Made by a program: the position numbers and the translations under genes. From positions 3,746,501 through 3,810,500 of the forward strand of contig NZ_CP069338.1 of NCBI RefSeq assembly GCF_016859125.1: DNA of 64,000 bases, read 5' to 3'. Under the pieces are notes generated by a model. That model saw only the letters and a program-made list of their open reading frames with translations. It was not told where the DNA came from and ran no database searches. The stretch's first letter is position 1; each line of letters starts with the position of its first letter. The stretch comes from Archangium violaceum (lineage in GTDB: Bacteria > Myxococcota > Myxococcia > Myxococcales > Myxococcaceae). This document shows, in pieces, positions 15,435 to 24,399 of the stretch.

Positions 15435-17042
15435 TCAAGGACCCACGAGGACACCCGGGTTGAGGATGCCATGGGGGTCGAGTGCCTGCTTCACGGCCCT
15501 CAAGGCGAGCGCGAAGGGCTCGGGGCGCTCGCGGTCGTACCAGGGGCGGTGCAGCCGGCCCACCGCGTGGTGGTGCGTGATGGTGCCGCCGTGTGCGCTC
15601 ACGGCGTCGCTGGCGGCGTGTTTGAGCGCCATCCACTGCTCCCACTCGCCGCCGGGCCGGGCCGGGCCGAGGAACGTGTAGTAGGGCGCGGGCCCATCCG
15701 GGTAGACGTGGGTGAAACGGCAGCTCACGAGCCCGCCGCCGCAGATGCGCTCCAGGGCGCCGCGCACGGACTCGAGGATGGCGCCGTGGAGCGCGTCGAA
15801 CCGGTCCCACGTGCAGGCGGTCTCGAAGGTGTCGGCGATGACTCCGAGGCTCACCATGACGTTCTGCAGGTAGGGGGCCTCGATGAAGGCCGAGCGCCAG
15901 CTCTCCGCGGCGCCACCGGGGCGGGCCCGGGTCCCGGGTTCGTCGGAGCGGTAGCGGGCGCCCTCGCGGCACTCGCCGCCGTGGGAGGCGGTGATGGCGA
16001 GCGCGCGCTCCATCTTCGCCCGCGGGGGATGGTCGGCGGACTCGAAGGCGAGCACGAGCACGCTGGAGCCATCGCCCGTGACGCCATTGAGGAAGGACTC
16101 CCGTTCGTCGAGCAGACGACAGTTGGAGGGGTGGAGGCCGGACTGGGAGAGCTCGCGGACGGCGCGCACGCCGGTGGCGAAGTCGGGGAAGAGGACGCTG
16201 GCGTTGGCGCGGAAGAGGGGGCGGGCCTGGACGCGCACCCAGGCCTCGGTGATGACGCCGAGCGTGCCCTCGGAGCCGAGCACGAGCCGATCCGGGGCGG
16301 GGCCCGCGCCCGAGGCGGGCAGGCGGCGCGTTTCGTGGAGGCCGCGCGGGGTGAGCATGCGGGTGGACTGCACCAGGTCGTCGATGTGCGTGTAGAGCGT
16401 GGCGAAGTGGCCACCGGCGCGCGTGGCGATCCACCCGCCGAGCGTGGAGAACTCGAAGGACTGGGGGAAGTGGCGCAGCGTGAGGCCATGCGGGGCGAGC
16501 CGGGCCTCGAGCACGGGCCCGGTGGCACCGGCCTGGATGCGGGCGGCGCGGGAGAGGGGGTCCACCTCGACGACACGGTCCATGCGGCGCATGTCGAGCG
16601 ACACGGCGCCGTGGAAGCCCTCGCCGATGGCGGCCTCGACACCCCGGACGACGCTGGTGCCTCCACCGAAGGGGATGAGGGCCACGCGGTTGTCCGCGCA
16701 CCACTCCATCACGGCCCGCACGTCGTCCTCGTTATGGGGACGGGCGACGAAGTCGGGAGCGGGGGAGAAGTCCCCGTGGAAGCCTCGCACGAGGTCTCCG
16801 TAACCCTTGCCGTAGGTGTGCGCGGCGCGGTCGCTGTCCTCGGCCGAGCAGAGCTCCGCCAGGGATTCGGGTGGAGCGACGCGGGGAGGAGGGAGGCGCG
16901 GGCTCGCGGCGGGCTCGCGGGGCTCCAGGTTGGGGCCCCCGAGGAGTGGGGACACCTGCTCGGCGAGGGCCCGCCGTGCCTCGATGTCCGGGAACTTGTC
17001 CGCGTAGCCCCAGCCCCAGATGCTCGTCGCGCGAGTGCTCAT
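15435..17042 (-). CDS. FAD-binding oxidase of the alkyldihydroxyacetone-phosphate synthase family
   Basis: 535 residues. FAD_binding_4 (PCMH) domain at about 90-270 with PFGGGTSVVRGVE and LGSEGTLGVITEAWVRV; C-terminal FAD-oxidase domain with FTHVYPDGPAPYYTFLGP and the His-rich THHHAVGRLHRPWYD near 500, which is the hallmark of alkyl-DHAP synthases. Such enzymes swap the acyl chain of acyl-DHAP for a fatty alcohol to start ether-lipid synthesis; myxobacteria make ether lipids as developmental markers (established knowledge). D-lactate or glycolate dehydrogenase is the alternative, but the HHH motif argues against it. Start ATG 17042. No other lipid gene adjoins. Confidence 0.8.
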   Translation of the reverse strand: MSTRATSIWGWGYADKFPDIEARRALAEQVSPLLGGPNLEPREPAASPRLPPPRVAPPESLAELCSAEDSDRAAHTYGKGYGDLVRGFHGDFSPAPDFVARPHNEDDVRAVMEWCADNRVALIPFGGGTSVVRGVEAAIGEGFHGAVSLDMRRMDRVVEVDPLSRAARIQAGATGPVLEARLAPHGLTLRHFPQSFEFSTLGGWIATRAGGHFATLYTHIDDLVQSTRMLTPRGLHETRRLPASGAGPAPDRLVLGSEGTLGVITEAWVRVQARPLFRANASVLFPDFATGVRAVRELSQSGLHPSNCRLLDERESFLNGVTGDGSSVLVLAFESADHPPRAKMERALAITASHGGECREGARYRSDEPGTRARPGGAAESWRSAFIEAPYLQNVMVSLGVIADTFETACTWDRFDALHGAILESVRGALERICGGGLVSCRFTHVYPDGPAPYYTFLGPARPGGEWEQWMALKHAASDAVSAHGGTITHHHAVGRLHRPWYDRERPEPFALALRAVKQALDPHGILNPGVLVGP

Positions 17043-17120: not shown

Positions 17121-18341
17121 TCAGGACTCGGGGGCCGAGGGGGGCTCCGGCTCCAGCTCTTCGAACCGAGCGGAGGATGTCTGTCTTCGAGGTGGCTCCG
17201 GTGACTCGCGCAGCACGGGCAGCGGGAACTCGAAGGGCCTCCCGTCCGAGGCGTGCGTGTTCCCCGTCACCTCGGCCGCGCCCATGCCCTCTCGTTGCGG
17301 CTGGAACGTGGCCTGAGGATCGCTCGCGGACGCCTTGCCCGCGCGGAACACCGCGAAGCGCGTCAGCAGCGCGCCCGTGGAGCCGAGCAGCGCGCCCGCC
17401 ACCTTCATCCACCTGCGCCGTCCCGGCCACACGCCCAGCACGAGCGACGCCGCGGTACACGCCTTCGCCGCCTTCCACATCCGCCCCGTGGGGCCGTGCT
17501 TCAGCGGCCGCTCGAGCACTTCCAGCCTCGAGGCCTCGTGCTGCACCGCGACGCCCGCGAGCAGCTCGCATACCTTGCCGAGCGTGCTGAACAGGCGGAG
17601 TATCTTCTCCTCGCCGCGCGAGTGCGGCAGCAGCTCCAGGAGGCTCCCCGCGCTCGCCATCGCCGAGGACATGAACAGCAGGGGCAGCGTCTTGCGCGTG
17701 GCCTGCCAGACGGGGACCGCCGTGTTGGCGATGAGCACCGCCGTATACCCGGCGAGCGGGAATCCGAACAGGCCCGCTCCCAGCGCCGCCCCCTCGCCCG
17801 CGCGCCCCAACCAGCCGCGCCGGCCCGCGAACAGCAGGGACGCGGTGTTCATCGCTCCCGAGCCCGCCAGCACCCACGAGCCCACGCTCATGGGCGACGT
17901 GGGCCGGAACACCCGCATCATGTTCAGGAAGCGCTCGGGCCTGCCCAGGTCGTAGATGAGCAGCCCCGCGCTGACCATATCGCCCACCGTGCCCACCCAC
18001 CGGCACTTGCGCCCCATGCCCTCCAGGTGCTTGCCGCCGGCCACGTCCGTCGCCGCGCCCAGCACGCTCGCCGCGCCCGCGACTCCTCCCACGTAGAAGT
18101 AGAGCGGGATGCTCCAGATCCACACGGGCTCCTTGAGCGCCGGTTGCCCGTAGTAGCTCGGCGACTCCGCGAGCACTCCCGACCGCGAGGGCCGCGTCCG
18201 CAACACCCCACGTGTGGGATTGGCCTCGTCGATGTCCCGCACCCGCTGCTGGGCACCCTCCCCGGAGAGCTCGCCCAACCGTGAGTCGATGTTGCGCCCG
18301 TCCTGGCGCTTCTCCAGATCCTCGGGCCGGATGTCACCCAT
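17121..18341 (-). CDS. NrfD/PsrC-type membrane subunit of formate dehydrogenase
   Basis: 406 residues, about eight hydrophobic spans between 70 and 340 (for example IPLYFYVGGVAGAASVLGAA near 78), with a 70-residue hydrophilic N-terminus and a ~75-residue soluble C-terminal tail. NrfD-family subunits anchor the complex and pass electrons to quinone. Start ATG 18341 overlaps the end of the iron-sulfur subunit by 8 bp, so translation is coupled. It replaces the cytochrome b556 gamma subunit found in E. coli FDH-N. Last gene of the fdh operon; no clear terminator before 17042. Confidence 0.88.
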   Translation of the reverse strand: MGDIRPEDLEKRQDGRNIDSRLGELSGEGAQQRVRDIDEANPTRGVLRTRPSRSGVLAESPSYYGQPALKEPVWIWSIPLYFYVGGVAGAASVLGAATDVAGGKHLEGMGRKCRWVGTVGDMVSAGLLIYDLGRPERFLNMMRVFRPTSPMSVGSWVLAGSGAMNTASLLFAGRRGWLGRAGEGAALGAGLFGFPLAGYTAVLIANTAVPVWQATRKTLPLLFMSSAMASAGSLLELLPHSRGEEKILRLFSTLGKVCELLAGVAVQHEASRLEVLERPLKHGPTGRMWKAAKACTAASLVLGVWPGRRRWMKVAGALLGSTGALLTRFAVFRAGKASASDPQATFQPQREGMGAAEVTGNTHASDGRPFEFPLPVLRESPEPPRRQTSSARFEELEPEPPSAPES

Positions 18342-19134
18342 GCGTCACCTCGCGTCCAAACAGCACCGCTCCGAGCGCCACCACGGCCATGCCCAGCGCG
18401 CCCCAGCCCATGGAGGCCCAGGCCTCCTTGCCCTTCATCGTGGGCACCACGGGATCGGGCGGCAGGTTGTAGACCTCGGGTTTGTCCACGAGCAGGAAGA
18501 ACGCGTTGAGCCCGCCGGTGCCCGGCTGGCTCTCCGCGTCCGCGCCGTACAGGTACGCCTGCTCCCATCCCTTCTCATGGAGCTGCGCCACGCGCCGATA
18601 TGCCCGCTCGCGCAGCTCGTCCACGTCTCCGAACTGGATGGAGGCGGTGGGGCACGCCTTGGCGCAGGCGGGCGTCATGTCCTCGCCCAGCCGGTCGTAG
18701 CAGAGCGTGCATTTCCACGCGCGCCCGTCGTCCTCGCGCCGGTCGATGACGCCGAAGGGGCACGCCGCCACGCAATAGCCGCAGCCGTTGCACACGTCCG
18801 GCTGGACATAGACGGTGTCGAACTCGGTGCGGATGATGGCGCCCGTGGGGCACGCCTCCAGGCACCCCGCGCGCTGGCAGTGCTTGCACACGTCCGAGCT
18901 CATCAGCCACGAGAAGTCCATCAGGCCCACCGTCTGGGTGGGCAGGGGCACCGGCCGCTCGACGAAGGCCACGTGCCGCCAGGTGGACGCCCCCAGGTGC
19001 CCCGTGTTGTCGTACGACATGCCGGTGAGCCGGAAGCCGTCATCCGGGAGCTGGTTCCACTGCTTGCAGGCCACCTCGCACGCCTTGCAGCCGATGCAGA
19101 GGGTCGTGTCGGTGAAGAAGCCCTTCTGTCCCAT
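18334..19134 (-). CDS. Formate dehydrogenase iron-sulfur (beta) subunit
   Basis: 266 residues carrying four Cys clusters for four [4Fe-4S] centres: CIGCKACEVAC near 13, CKHCQRAGCLEACPTGA near 85, CNGCGYCVAACPFG near 115 and CTLCYDRLG with CAKACP near 140-155. It transfers electrons from the molybdenum/selenocysteine subunit to the NrfD subunit. C-terminal residues 240-260 (GWGALGMAVVALGAVLFG) form one membrane span, as in FdnH-type beta subunits. Start ATG 19134 lies 5 bp after the catalytic subunit's stop with GGAGAAGAGG overlapping that stop. Confidence 0.92.
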   Translation of the reverse strand: MGQKGFFTDTTLCIGCKACEVACKQWNQLPDDGFRLTGMSYDNTGHLGASTWRHVAFVERPVPLPTQTVGLMDFSWLMSSDVCKHCQRAGCLEACPTGAIIRTEFDTVYVQPDVCNGCGYCVAACPFGVIDRREDDGRAWKCTLCYDRLGEDMTPACAKACPTASIQFGDVDELRERAYRRVAQLHEKGWEQAYLYGADAESQPGTGGLNAFFLLVDKPEVYNLPPDPVVPTMKGKEAWASMGWGALGMAVVALGAVLFGREVTHG

Positions 19135-19139
19135 GGGCG

Positions 19140-22100
19140 CTACCTCTTCTCCTGCTGGGGTTTGTCCGTGGGCGGGCCGACGTCCTCGTGGTCCCTCCCC
19201 ACTTCGCTGACACCCGGTGGCAGCGGCCATGGCTCCCAGCCCATGGCGGCGCGCCGGCCCCGGCTGCGTCTGCCGGGGAGGAGGTTGCAGGTGAGCGCCT
19301 TGGACTCCTGGATGGAGACGTTCGGATCCGCCGAGAAGTGCGTCAGATCATTGGCGCTCTCGCCCTTCGACCGCCCCGTGTAGCCCCAGTGGTACGGCAG
19401 GCCCACCTGGTGCACCCGCTTGCCGTCGAGCTGCAACGGGCGGATGCGCTCCGTCACCAGCACCCGGCACTCCACCTCCCCGCGCGCCGTGTACACCGTG
19501 CACCAGCCACCGTTCTCCAGCTCCACCTCGTCGGCCAGCTCCGGAGACACCTCGACGAACATCTCCGGCTGCAGCTCGCTCAGCCACGACAGCCAGCGCG
19601 ACATGCCGCCCGCGGTGTGGTGCTCGGTGAGCCGGTACGTGGTGAGCACGTAGGGGTAGCGCGGGTCCTCCCACGCGCGGTGGTAGGGATTGTCCCGGCG
19701 CCGCCAGTCGTAGCGCGCCGGATTGCACTGCTGCCCGTAGAGGAAGTTGTGGACGGGGGACTCCAGCGGCTCGTAGTGCGTGGGCAGCGGCCCGTCCATC
19801 ATCCCGCTCGGCGCGAAGAGCCAGCCCTTCCCGTCCGCCTGCATGATGAATGGATCATTCCCGGAGATGGACTCCAACCCGATGGCGCCCTTCTCGGGGC
19901 GGTAGGTGGGCGGTCGGTCGGCGATGTAGTCGGGCACGTCCTCGCCCGTCCAACTGCCCTTCTGGGCATCCCACCAGACGTACTTCTTGCGCTCGCTCCA
20001 GGGACGGCCCTCGGGGTCCGCCGAGGCGCGGTTGTAGAGGAGGCGCCGGTTGGCGGGCCACGCCCAGCCCCACTCGAGCGCCACCCACGTCTGCTCGCGG
20101 CCCGGCTTCTTGCGCGCCGGCTGGTTCACCCCGTCCGCGTAGCAGCCCGAGTAGAGCCAGCAGCCACTCGCGGTGGAGCCGTCGTCCTTCAACTCCTTGA
20201 AGCCACTCACCGGCTCGCCATCCGCCACCGTGTAACCGTTGATCTCCTTCAGCACGGCCTCGGCGTCGGGCTCCTGGAGCGGGCCCTTCGTCGGATAGTC
20301 CCAGGTGAGGGCCTGGATGGGCCGGTCCTTCTCCTCGGTGGAGTGCGCGTAGAGCTTCTTGAGCCGGCGCCCGAGCTCGAAGACGAGGTGCAGATCACTG
20401 CGCGCCTCTCCGGGTGGCTCCACGGCCTTGAAGTGCCACTGCAGCAGGCGCTGGGTGTTGGTGTACGAGCCCTCCTTCTCCGTGTGCGCGGCACAGGGGA
20501 AGAAGAAGACCTCGGTTCGAATGTCCTGGGGGCGCACATCGCCGCGCACCACCTCGGGGGCGGTGCGCCAGAACTCGGCCGTCTCGGTGAGGCTGAAGTC
20601 GTTCACCACCAGCCAGTCGAGCTTCTGCAGGGCCTTGCGCTGGAGGGCCCCGTTCATCGAGCCCACCACGGGATTCTCGCCCATGACGAAGTAGCCCTTC
20701 ACGCGGCCATCGGCCATGTCGGCCACGGTCACCATGTGCGAGTGGTTGCCGGTGAGCTTCGGTATCCAATGGAAGCCCCAGTCGTTGTCCTTCGTGGCGG
20801 CGTCGCCGTAGTACGCCTTGAGCAGCGAGACGACGTACTTGGGGAACTCGCTCCACCAGCCGCTGGCCGACTCGTTGTCGTGGATGTACTGGTCGAAGCG
20901 CTGCGCGTCCGGCGCGTGCGGCATGGGGATGTAGCCGGGCAGCAGGTTGTAGAGCGTGGGGAGGTCGGTGGAGCCCTGGATGGAGGCGTGGCCGCGCAGG
21001 GCCATGATGCCGCCGCCGGGCCGGCCGATGTTGCCGAGCAGCAGCTGGATGATGGCGGCGGTGCGGATGTTCTGCACGCCCACCGAGTGCTGCGTCCAGC
21101 CCACCGCGTAGCAGAAGGCGCTGGTGCGCTCGCGCCCTGAGTTGTCGCAGAGCGCCCTGGCCACCTTCAGGAAGAGCTCCTCGGGGACGCCGCAGATGCG
21201 CGAGACGACCGCCGGCGTGTAGCGCGAGAAGTGGCGCTTGAGCACCTGGAAGACACAGCGCGGGTGCTGGAGCGTCTTGTCCCTGGACACCTCGGTGACG
21301 TTCTTGCCGCGCACGCGCCCGTGGCCGCCCGCTCCCGGCTCGCCGAAGAGCTCCTTATGGCCCGCGGCGGGCACCACGCCGTCCATGTTCTCGTACTGCC
21401 AGGATTGGGGATCGTACTTGCCCGTCTCCGGGTCGTAGCCGCTGAAGAGGCCATCCAACTCCTCGGTGTCCCGGAAGTCCTCGCGGAGGATGGCGGGCGC
21501 GTTGGTGTAGTTCACGACGTAGTCGTGGAAGTAGCGCTCGTTCTCCAGGATGTAGTGGACGATTCCCCCGAGGAACGCGATGTCCGAGCCCGCGCGAAGC
21601 GGCACGTACACGTCCGCCATGGCGCTGGTGCGGGTGAAGCGGGGGTCCACGTGGATGACGGTGGCGCCGCGCTCTCGCGCCTCCATCACCCACTGGAAGC
21701 CCACCGGGTGACACTCGGCCATGTTGCTGCCCATGATGACGATGCAGTCCGCGTTCTGCAGATCCTGCTGGAACGAGGTGGCACCGCCGCGACCGAACGA
21801 GATGCCCAGACCGGGCACCGTGGAGGAGTGTCATATTCGAGCCTGGTTCTCCACCTGGACGATGCCGAGCCCGGCGGTGAAGAGCTTCTTGATGAGGTAG
21901 TTCTCCTCGTTGTCGAGCGTGGCGCCGCCCAGGTGGGCAATCCCCAGGGTGCGATTGACGATCTCCCCCTTGGCGTTCTTCTCTTCCCAGGTGGCGTCGC
22001 GCGTCTTCTTCACGCGCTCGGCGACCATGTCCAGGGCCTTGTGGAGGGGGATGCGCTCCCACTGCATGGCGCCGGGACGCCGGTAGAGGACGGTGTCGAG

Positions 22101-22403
22101 CCGGTGGCTACCGGTGACGAGCTGGAAGGTGGCGGCGCCCTTGGGGCAGAGCCGGCCGCGGGAGATGGGTGAGTCCTCGTCACCCTCGATGTCGAGAATC
22201 CTCTCGTCCTTCACATAGACGCGTTGGCCACAGCCGACGGCACAGTAGGGGCAGATGGACTGGACGACCTTGTCGGCCTGGGCCGTACGTGGCTCCAGCT
22301 CGCGGCTGCGCTCGGACATGGCCGTCTCACCCAGGGCGGTGGAGTCCTTCTCCTGGAGTTGACGGATGAGAGGCCAGCGAGAGAGCAGGTCCAAGAGTCC
22401 CAT
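19140..22403 (-). CDS. Selenocysteine-containing formate dehydrogenase, catalytic subunit
   Basis: 1087 residues including Sec191, encoded by an in-frame TGA at 21831-21833. Reading through it joins two perfectly collinear halves: NQARI before and HSSTVPGLGISFGRGGAT after, exactly the formate dehydrogenase active-site strand. A SECIS hairpin follows the TGA. Other landmarks: [4Fe-4S] ligands CPYCAVGC near 70 and LCPKG near 103, DPRFTRTSAMADVYVPLRAG near 245, and a C-terminal MGD-binding domain. It oxidises formate to CO2 with Mo/W-bis-MGD. Start ATG 22403 follows GGAGGC. No twin-arginine signal is present, unlike E. coli FdnG. First gene of a three-gene operon with 18334 and 17121. Confidence 0.93.
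21802..21833 (-). promoter_or_regulatory. Selenocysteine UGA codon and bacterial SECIS element
   Basis: Minus strand: UGA, 12 nt, then stem GUGCCC / GGGCAU (one G-U pair) with the apical loop GGUCU. This is the same loop and almost the same UGA-to-stem spacing as in E. coli fdhF, where SelB binds. It lies inside the coding sequence and is itself translated. Confidence 0.9.
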
Positions 22404-22438: not shown

Positions 22439-23353
22439 GTGGGGATGGACGAGACGGGAAGCGAGGGGGGAGGGAGCTGTTCCGTGGAACAGTCACCGAA
22501 CCCACCAGGCAACCGAGCGTGCCCCACTCCCCTCTCCCTCTGGGAGAGGGACGGGGTGAGGGTCGACAATCCACTCGGCCTGTCCTGCACTACCACTCCT
22601 CACGCGCCGCACGGTTCGTTCCCAGGCTCACGGTCCCGGTTCAACCAGTCGTGTGGTGCAGCCTGTGCCGCCCCCGTCAATGCAAGCACCGGGGAGTTCC
22701 TCGCTCCAACGGCGACCCGCGCCGGTCAGGTGCTCGACAAGGTCGTTCAGGTCGCGGAGGCCGTCCAGGGCCTCAACATCCTCGCGAGGGCCCTGTCCGG
22801 CGCGGAGCTGGATCTCGTCGAGGAGACTCTCAAGGATTGCGCGGCGCAGGCCCACGCTGACGTCAACGCTGCCTACCAGCAACGGGATGGGGGCTCGAAG
22901 TTCGAGAACGGCAAGTTTCCAAATGACGCCGAGTGCTTGAAAACAGTCGGGTTCGATGACTCGGGGGAAAATGTCTCCCTCGCCCAGGAGCTTGGCCGAC
23001 TCAAGCACGCTGTGGCCTTTGCCTGCCTCAAGGTTCGCCTACCTCTGGACCTCCGTGAAAACTTCACCGTCGAGCCTCGCTACAAGCCGGACCCGGATGT
23101 GAATGGCGTCGTGCTGACCAACAAGGGTCTCGACACCCTCCATCCAGACTTCGTGGTGCACGGGACGAGGAATGCCACCGACGTGCAGTGCGTCTACGAG
23201 TTCAAGTTTCCCTGCCTCTCCTCCTACAAGCTGGACCCTCGCAAGTCTCCGGGAGTAAAGGCTCAACTGGATGCCTACCAGAAGCTCACGAAACGATGTC
23301 CCGCGGCCATCATCTCTCCCGGGGGGCTTTTCCAACACGGCATCCATCCATGA
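22439..23353 (+). CDS. Putative PD-(D/E)xK nuclease toxin (start uncertain)
   Basis: The frame is open from GTG 22439 (304 residues), but the first ~45 codons read through repeat copy 2 and look non-coding; conserved-looking sequence starts near 22640. The C-terminal half carries a nuclease signature: D237 in HPDFVV, E254-x-K256 in CVYEFKFPC, then Q-x-x-x-Y in AQLDAY near 276-280, as in RecB-like PD-(D/E)xK enzymes. Four or more Cys suggest an exported protein. Its stop overlaps the ATG of the DUF3396 immunity gene (ATGA), so they are coupled. No signal peptide or delivery domain is visible, so the 5' end may have been lost. GC at third positions is lower than in neighbours, suggesting transfer. 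Confidence 0.65.
   Translation: MGMDETGSEGGGSCSVEQSPNPPGNRACPTPLSLWERDGVRVDNPLGLSCTTTPHAPHGSFPGSRSRFNQSCGAACAAPVNASTGEFLAPTATRAGQVLDKVVQVAEAVQGLNILARALSGAELDLVEETLKDCAAQAHADVNAAYQQRDGGSKFENGKFPNDAECLKTVGFDDSGENVSLAQELGRLKHAVAFACLKVRLPLDLRENFTVEPRYKPDPDVNGVVLTNKGLDTLHPDFVVHGTRNATDVQCVYEFKFPCLSSYKLDPRKSPGVKAQLDAYQKLTKRCPAAIISPGGLFQHGIHP
22529..22564 (+). repeat. Dispersed palindromic repeat, copy 2
   Basis: 36 bp copy in direct orientation, between the fdh operon and the conserved part of the toxin gene. It is open in the toxin frame and may mark the point where the toxin's N-terminus was lost. Confidence 0.9.
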
Positions 23354-24399
23354 CTTCACCCTTCCCTCGCATCCGCCATCGTGGACGTCGCCCTGGCTAC
23401 GTCAAGCTCTGGAGTGGTGAAGAGCCCCGCTTTCCGCGGGAACTTCTCGCGCGAGACGTGGTTCGCTTCGCCTTCTACCTGCCCTACGACCACCCGGACA
23501 TCGCCTCTGGGGTGAGTCATGCTGTCGAGAGCTATATGCGTGTTGTCGGGCAGGGTCCCAAGACCATCAACCGTGCCTTCACCAACGACGATGAAGGTGA
23601 TGCTCTGCACGAAGAGCGCTGGAGCTATATCCGCCGTCTTCTTCTTCCCGAGCGGCCTTTCCGCTTCGTCGAGGAACTCAGCGAGCCAACTGCCAACCGA
23701 TTGGAAAAGAGGGGCTATGCCACTCAGCTCATCTTCAACGGAGGCATCTTCAGCAGCAATGGCTACGAGCTTTGCTACCGGGCCCGCCTTCCCTGGCGTA
23801 CGCCATCACCGGACTCCGTGAGCCTCCTCACCGCGACGTTTCCCACCGAGTACCTGGAGGTGCACGGCGCTGCGAGGGTGCGCGAGCTCGCCTTGGAGAT
23901 GGCGTCCCAGCTTCGTTTCGCCTCTGGCCACGCCGGCCTCGCTCTCCACCTCTACGGGTCCCTGCGTCCCTCGGATGCGGCCCTCCGCGCCGAGTTCCTG
24001 CGTTATCCGGGGATCGATCTGCGCACGGCCTGGCTCGGCGCTCACCGGATGGGCTTGCGAGTCGATGGTGTCCACTGGCTCAACTTCCTCGCGCAACCCG
24101 TGCTGGGCCAGCTCGGTGGTGCCACTGCCCTACGCTCTCGTCTCCATGCCCCCGAAACCACCGTGCACGAACTCGAGGGCGACCGCGTCGTCGTCTCCCT
24201 CGGTGAAATGCCCGAAGCGGGAGACCTGTCCGCCGGGAAGGCCCTTCCCGCGTACCACGAGCTCGCACGGGTGCTGGAGCCCTGGCTCGAGCCTCCGCGG
24301 TTGTGGGAGCGCATCTGGCCCGGCGAGCCTGTGCTTCACTCGAGCCTGTGCTTCAGCGAGGACGAAGCTCGGCGCTGGTGGATGCGATTCCTCGATTGA
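23350..24399 (+). CDS. DUF3396 (type VI/TsiV-type) immunity protein
   Basis: 349 residues from ATG 23350, overlapping the toxin stop as ATGA. Family features of DUF3396: N-terminal VRFAFYLPYDHPDIASGVSH near 38, central FPTEYLEVHGAARVRELALE near 175, SGHAGLALHLYGSL near 207, and the C-terminal block HWLNFLAQPVLGQLGG then LEGDRVVVSLGEMPEAGD and LARVLEPWLE. DUF3396 proteins neutralise cognate toxins in T6SS and other polymorphic systems (family knowledge). No signal peptide, so it acts in the cytosol, consistent with a nuclease target. Tight coupling makes this a toxin-immunity module. Base composition is less GC-biased than in housekeeping neighbours. Confidence 0.85.
   Translation: MTSPFPRIRHRGRRPGYVKLWSGEEPRFPRELLARDVVRFAFYLPYDHPDIASGVSHAVESYMRVVGQGPKTINRAFTNDDEGDALHEERWSYIRRLLLPERPFRFVEELSEPTANRLEKRGYATQLIFNGGIFSSNGYELCYRARLPWRTPSPDSVSLLTATFPTEYLEVHGAARVRELALEMASQLRFASGHAGLALHLYGSLRPSDAALRAEFLRYPGIDLRTAWLGAHRMGLRVDGVHWLNFLAQPVLGQLGGATALRSRLHAPETTVHELEGDRVVVSLGEMPEAGDLSAGKALPAYHELARVLEPWLEPPRLWERIWPGEPVLHSSLCFSEDEARRWWMRFLD

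Follow-up and report, generated by a model that had tools for sequence, protein, structure and literature searches.

A formate dehydrogenase gene split by TGA in an Archangium-like genome is very probably an intact selenoprotein gene with a covarying downstream hairpin

Introduction

Read with translation table 11, the 64,000-nucleotide stretch of Archangium violaceum DNA analyzed here (the window) divides what resembles one formate dehydrogenase gene into two open reading frames (ORFs), 22574-21831 (247 aa) and 21818-19140 (892 aa). The question raised by this locus is whether these ORFs are the two halves of a broken gene or parts of one selenoprotein gene, fdhA, in which UGA is decoded as selenocysteine (Sec). 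The second reading had been proposed in an original prediction made from the sequence alone; its observation was right, and our analysis supports its interpretation in substance. A Sec-containing formate dehydrogenase is a well-known kind of bacterial gene, and the gene in the window is ordinary in kind. In the excerpted text of PMC13188914, the formate dehydrogenase alpha subunit is described as the most widely distributed bacterial selenoprotein family, and an excerpt of PMC5029168 names it together with SelD as the most widespread.

Results

The gene and the interrupting codon were placed as follows.

19140..22403, minus strand: fdhA-like gene whose product is the alpha subunit of a molybdopterin formate dehydrogenase, with 1087 residues including Sec 191 (from translation with TGA as U and family matches)
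21831..21833, minus strand: TGA codon 191, read here as Sec (from alignment to 1h0h and 1kqf and conservation in 186 loci)

Between the start ATG at 22403 and the terminal stop at 19142-19140, the minus strand holds 1087 codons, and the only interruption in this frame is the TGA at 21833-21831 (codon 191). The frame is open on both sides, which confirms the claim that a TGA at 21831-21833 splits a single gene. Translation with TGA as U gives QVENQARI-U-HSSTVPGLG around the site, where the codon pair TGA-CAC corresponds to Sec followed by His. The product, FdhA, matched NF041513 (formate_DH_Act) best (1871 bits, cut-off 1400; next match, 1052 bits); it also exceeded the cut-off of TIGR01553 (1052.4 versus 814.2 bits) and contained three molybdopterin oxidoreductase domains (PF04879, PF00384, and PF01568). 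A PDB sequence search returned near full-length matches to 1h0h (best, E 1.5e-245) and 1kqf, and residue X (Sec) of both structures aligned with codon 191, in agreement with the proposed position of the TGA within the active-site strand NQARI-Sec-HSSTV. The 1h0h protein, which we take to be the W formate dehydrogenase of Desulfovibrio gigas, carries Sec at the same site but is more distant than the members of FdhA's clade. The computed mass, with Cys placed at site 191, was 122.3 kDa, and the subunit mass of ~118 kDa given previously needs correction. The closest named relatives were Archangium loci (86-87% identity). FdhA is a myxobacterial member of NF041513, with at most 64% identity to the Actinomycetota forms listed; these Actinomycetota loci were 54-64% identical to FdhA and mostly shared the same fdhA-beta-NrfD order.

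The Sec-site codon was read in 186 homologous loci and was TGA in 182, TAG in 1, and Cys in 3. Within the phylum, all 106 loci with a readable site carried TGA (70 in a first set and 36 in a later set); the phylum search gave 109 match rows, equivalent to 107 loci because two genes span two rows each, and locus L190 was left out of the codon count since its contig ends before the site. The 80 named loci, drawn from Myxococcota, Geobacter relatives, Actinomycetota, Chloroflexota, and a few others, comprised 76 with TGA, 3 with Cys, and 1 with TAG. The same TGA was present in all five other genomes of the window's genus that the phylum search returned. On a FastTree tree of 150 loci, the codon changed twice, once to Cys and once to TAG. 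The Cys forms (two Streptomyces and one Plantactinospora) made up one clade, and the TAG form was found in Geodermatophilus saharensis (L160:6540), at the Sec site of the same formate dehydrogenase. The best tRNA-Sec match in this genome (65.4 bits) had the anticodon CTA and lay ~250 bases from selA; UAG-Sec formate dehydrogenases were already known in Geodermatophilaceae, as stated in an excerpt of PMC5330540.

Among the 49 named genomes tested, a SelA match accompanied the recoded codon in 44 of 46 and the Cys form in 1 of 3; the two TGA-form genomes that gave no SelA match (L144 and L159) may reflect draft gaps. FdhA or a relative was detected at E <= 1e-100 in 78 of 195 phylum genomes, some via a second, more distant clade only, and 77 of these 78 also had a SelA match when the lists were compared by eye, the exception (G020) being 61% complete. 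Plantactinospora mayteni (L128) has the Cys form and yet keeps SelA and a tRNA-Sec with the anticodon TCA. A record labelled Comamonas sp. KCTC 72670 agreed in its place and SelA match with a genome of the window's family (G125), so this label is probably wrong.

The original prediction held that SelA, SelB, SelD, and tRNA-Sec must be encoded elsewhere in the genome, and a search of the genome holding the window (12,677,854 bases, single contig) recovered all four, at sites far apart from one another and from fdhA. These were selA at 10385565-10386641 (484.7 bits), selB at 5529429-5531339 (325.6 bits, cut-off 242.25, with SelB-wing_2 and SelB-wing_3 domains), selD at 12336739-12337668 (380.3 bits), and tRNA-Sec at 8421001-8421095 (73.2 bits, cut-off 47), which ARAGORN reported as tRNA-SeC, tca (anticodon UCA). 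Both selB and tRNA-Sec are thus present, where their absence had been named as evidence against the prediction. The expectation that the Sec trait is not universal in myxobacteria was also correct, but the trait is common: a SelA match at E <= 0.001 was found in 151 of 195 phylum genomes, with 150 over the cut-off. There were also 74 phylum genomes with a SelA match (weak in G174) but without this formate dehydrogenase at E 1e-100.

Two further genes of the same genome contained an in-frame TGA. One is selD itself (HCAG-U-AAK, a single TGA), and the other is a peroxiredoxin-family gene at 986862-987230 (FTGG-U-TREL) whose product has a signal-like N-terminus. Judging from the family motifs, we assume that both TGA codons stand at expected Sec sites, in the peroxiredoxin likely the peroxidatic position. 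The candidate selenoproteins of the genome are therefore at least three in this partial search (FdhA, SelD, and the peroxiredoxin). Rfam detected nothing in the selD locus at E values up to 1, and the stretch after the selD TGA folded better than its shuffles (z -2.95), a result from a single sequence rather than from comparison. The end of the tRNA-Sec gene (60 bases or more, as judged by eye) recurs in the same orientation ~19.8 kb away (8401214), and a phage integrase-family gene (PF00589) lies ~120 bases from the tRNA gene, between the repeats. The selC gene is a common integration site, and here a mobile element seems to have used it for attachment (8401214-8421095 of contig C1; L093, L227, and L228).

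Downstream of the TGA, the following element was predicted.

21801..21819, minus strand: candidate SECIS hairpin with a 7-bp stem, GGUGCCC/GGGCAUC, and the loop GGUCU (from folding and covariation)

The hairpin had been described as lying 12 nt after the UGA, with a GGUCU loop on a GUGCCC/GGGCAU stem. The loop and the position of the GUGCCC arm were retained in our analysis, but the full stem is longer, as listed, starting 11 to 12 nt downstream of the UGA, with the loop beginning at 18 nt. On 34 nt, it folded at -12.2 kcal/mol as an unbulged 7-bp stem. The bSECIS model, as given in the excerpted text of PMC13188914, asks for a loop of 3-9 nt, an upper stem of 4-16 bp, a G in the first two loop positions, a UGA-to-loop distance of 16-37 nt, and an energy of at most -7.5 kcal/mol; the hairpin, with a 5-nt loop, a 7-bp stem, G in both of the first two loop positions, a distance of 18 nt, and the energy given above, lies within all these limits. 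An Rfam scan of the 64-kb window at the gathering threshold found no RNA family, and SECIS_3 (RF01989) scored 26.9 bits on the hairpin (E 6e-4 in a 401-base search), below the gathering score of 63. The hairpin works like a member of SECIS_3 but scores outside that Rfam family. Folding energy was rejected as evidence for the hairpin since it was not exceptional in three of four stretches: of 200 shuffles, 146 folded as well for the 49-nt stretch, 62 for the 47-nt, 185 for the 65-nt, and 14 for the 34-nt stretch.

Covariation among loci, rather than folding energy, is what establishes the hairpin as real. We compared the first 150 loci, of which 147 were recoded (140 distinct sequences) and 3 were Cys forms. 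The fourth stem pair, at offsets 17 and 29 from the UGA, joins the third bases of a Val and a Gly codon, both of which are synonymously free. A standard pair was nonetheless present in 146 of the 147 recoded loci and in 139 of the 140 distinct sequences (G-C 52, C-G 51, U-A 26, U-G 6, G-U 3, A-U 1, and one mismatch), that is, 99% pairing compared with a mean of 45% and a maximum of 61% in 10,000 shuffles. The mutual information of this pair (1.33 bits) ranked at the top of 2346 third-position pairs taken from positions -58 to +149 relative to the Sec codon, the next pair reaching 0.52. When the hairpin codons were left out of the FastTree reconstruction, at least 24 changes of its pair type were counted on the resulting tree. 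Offsets 16 (U), 22 (G), 23 (U), and 25 were invariant in all 147 recoded loci. The three Cys forms had GGCCTC or GGGCTC where recoded loci have GGTCTG, with loss of the GGUCU loop, and none of their predicted folds was the 7-bp hairpin. Taken as comparative sequence evidence, these patterns argue decisively that the stem is under selection as RNA.

The hairpin had been called an E. coli-type SECIS, which held for the loop, the spacing, and the conserved bases but not for the helix, given the unbulged 7-bp stem. The window and E. coli K-12 fdhF, fdnG, and fdoG have in common UGA-CAC, the distance, an (A/G)GUCU loop, and U16, and G22 and U23 are likewise shared by the window hairpin and the E. 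coli hairpins. We take offsets 16, 22, and 23 to be U17, G23, and U24 of fdhF, presumably the bases contacted by SelB in E. coli. In fdnG and fdoG, U16 is predicted to be bulged, and in fdhF the neighboring U17 is; unlike fdnG and fdoG, the window hairpin has U16 opposite an A, and its 7-bp stem is unbroken. The base opposite U16 in the 140 distinct sequences was most often A (111) and otherwise G (21), C (5), or U (3).

The genes downstream of fdhA were assigned as follows.

18334..19230, minus strand: 4Fe-4S beta subunit (TIGR01582, 188.7 bits, below the cut-off of 334.7; PF13247)
17121..18341, minus strand: NrfD-type membrane subunit (PF03916, 44.1 bits; PF14589, 38.5 bits; both over cut-off)
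15435-17042, minus strand: GlcD-like FAD-linked oxidase that follows the NrfD gene, with a close copy near the formate dehydrogenase in two Archangium loci

The listed beta ORF overlaps fdhA, and the ATG at 19134 (MGQKGFF...) is therefore the likelier and probably the true start. Downstream of fdhA in 106 loci, a relative of the beta subunit was found in 102 and one of the NrfD-type subunit in 97; among the 88 loci with at least 2.5 kb of downstream DNA, the counts were 87 and 86. The GlcD-like flavoprotein was rejected as a fourth operon gene because it matched in only 3 of 120 loci (L096, L097, and L121), the L121 match covering 123 residues at 31%. Elsewhere in the window, the ORF 23188-24399 (plus strand) matched PF11876 (TsiV, type VI immunity for VRR-NUC, 147.7 bits).

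When the sequence preceding the first Fe-S motif was scanned with a regular expression for Tat-like motifs, 134 of 135 loci of FdhA's clade gave none, and in the single exception (L105) the motif probably precedes the real start. In the second clade, whose proteins are 38-46% identical to FdhA of the window, a Tat-like motif was present in 8 of 11, and none of its 14 loci matched the window's NrfD-type subunit within the DNA compared. The alpha subunits of E. coli FdnGHI and FdoGHI belong to the same family and have Sec in the same column as FdhA, but their third gene is fdnI or fdoI, whereas that of the window is NrfD-type (PF03916 and PF14589). Judged by its sequence, with neither a Tat signal nor an FdnI-type gamma subunit found, the enzyme encoded in the window is not of the exported, periplasmic E. 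coli FdnGHI type. The missing Tat motif and the NrfD-type subunit make cytoplasmic formate oxidation with transfer to quinone the most likely mode, in which the active site would face the cytoplasm.

Discussion

Our results indicate, with a probability of about 97%, that fdhA is an intact selenoprotein gene in which UGA 191 would be decoded as Sec through the hairpin and the Sec machinery of the genome. The ORF split under table 11 would also be expected if the TGA were due to faulty sequencing or to a nonsense mutation of recent origin, which would leave a broken gene. Its conservation in relatives excludes a sequencing error in practice; a broken gene is left with a negligible chance by the recurrence of the TGA in the genus (five other genomes) and in 182 of the 186 loci read, by the frame open on both sides, and by the presence of the sel genes. 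A UGA read as Trp or Cys without selenium, by near-cognate readthrough or a code change, would also keep the gene whole. This is highly improbable in view of the alignment of the site with Sec in solved enzymes and the presence of a Sec pathway with a tRNA(UCA), and a change to Cys in one clade that goes with loss of the hairpin speaks against it too, as does the occurrence of TGA at the expected Sec sites of SelD and the peroxiredoxin.

The hairpin could, for its part, be a by-product of GC-rich coding sequence with no role in decoding, a view with which its folding energies, close to those of shuffles, are compatible. Covariation at offsets 17 and 29 that greatly exceeds the values of all other tested third-position pairs, the invariant loop bases, and the Cys forms without the loop run against such an origin, which we consider very improbable.

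The sequence itself shows that the codon is conserved, that the hairpin covaries, that selA, selB, selC, and selD are all present, and how the three genes are ordered. By analogy with known families, a ribosome arriving at UGA 191 would meet SelB, carrying Sec-tRNA(UCA), bound to the downstream hairpin, and Sec would be inserted instead of termination. Sec 191 would then serve as a ligand to the metal (Mo or W) in the bis-pterin cofactor, and formate, the substrate suggested by the same families, would be oxidized to CO2. Electrons may pass from FdhA to the 4Fe-4S beta subunit, on to the NrfD-type membrane subunit, and finally to the quinone pool as acceptor.

Among myxobacteria, the closest precedent is the anaerobic Anaeromyxobacter dehalogenans, for which an excerpt of PMC1794560 reports 11 selenoproteins, including three FdhA, SelD, and peroxiredoxin. 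The same three families appear in the genome studied here, where our partial search found 3 selenoprotein candidates in all, versus the 11 selenoproteins listed for that species (PMC1794560, excerpt). Our search of the open-access literature, outside of which most subscription journals fall, found no paper on a Sec formate dehydrogenase in myxobacteria beyond Anaeromyxobacter, and in the open-access literature, we likewise found none on a Sec formate dehydrogenase with NrfD in Actinobacteria.

Since U16 mostly faces A, and in the window does so within an unbroken helix, a matching SelB might flip the U out of its pair or recognize only the loop; we put this forward tentatively and consider it rather unlikely. 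If true, SECIS recognition would have a variant form that extends across Myxococcota, Actinomycetota, and Chloroflexota. The gene in the window leaves the knowledge of Sec decoding unchanged. It does restore as one gene what standard calling reports as two, and an Archangium-like genome is shown to carry Sec genes together with at least three candidate selenoproteins. It also marks a SECIS subtype that the Rfam threshold missed in the window, and loci that carry Sec, Cys, or UAG at the same site, within an operon that is largely conserved, offer a good natural series for studying SelB-SECIS recognition.
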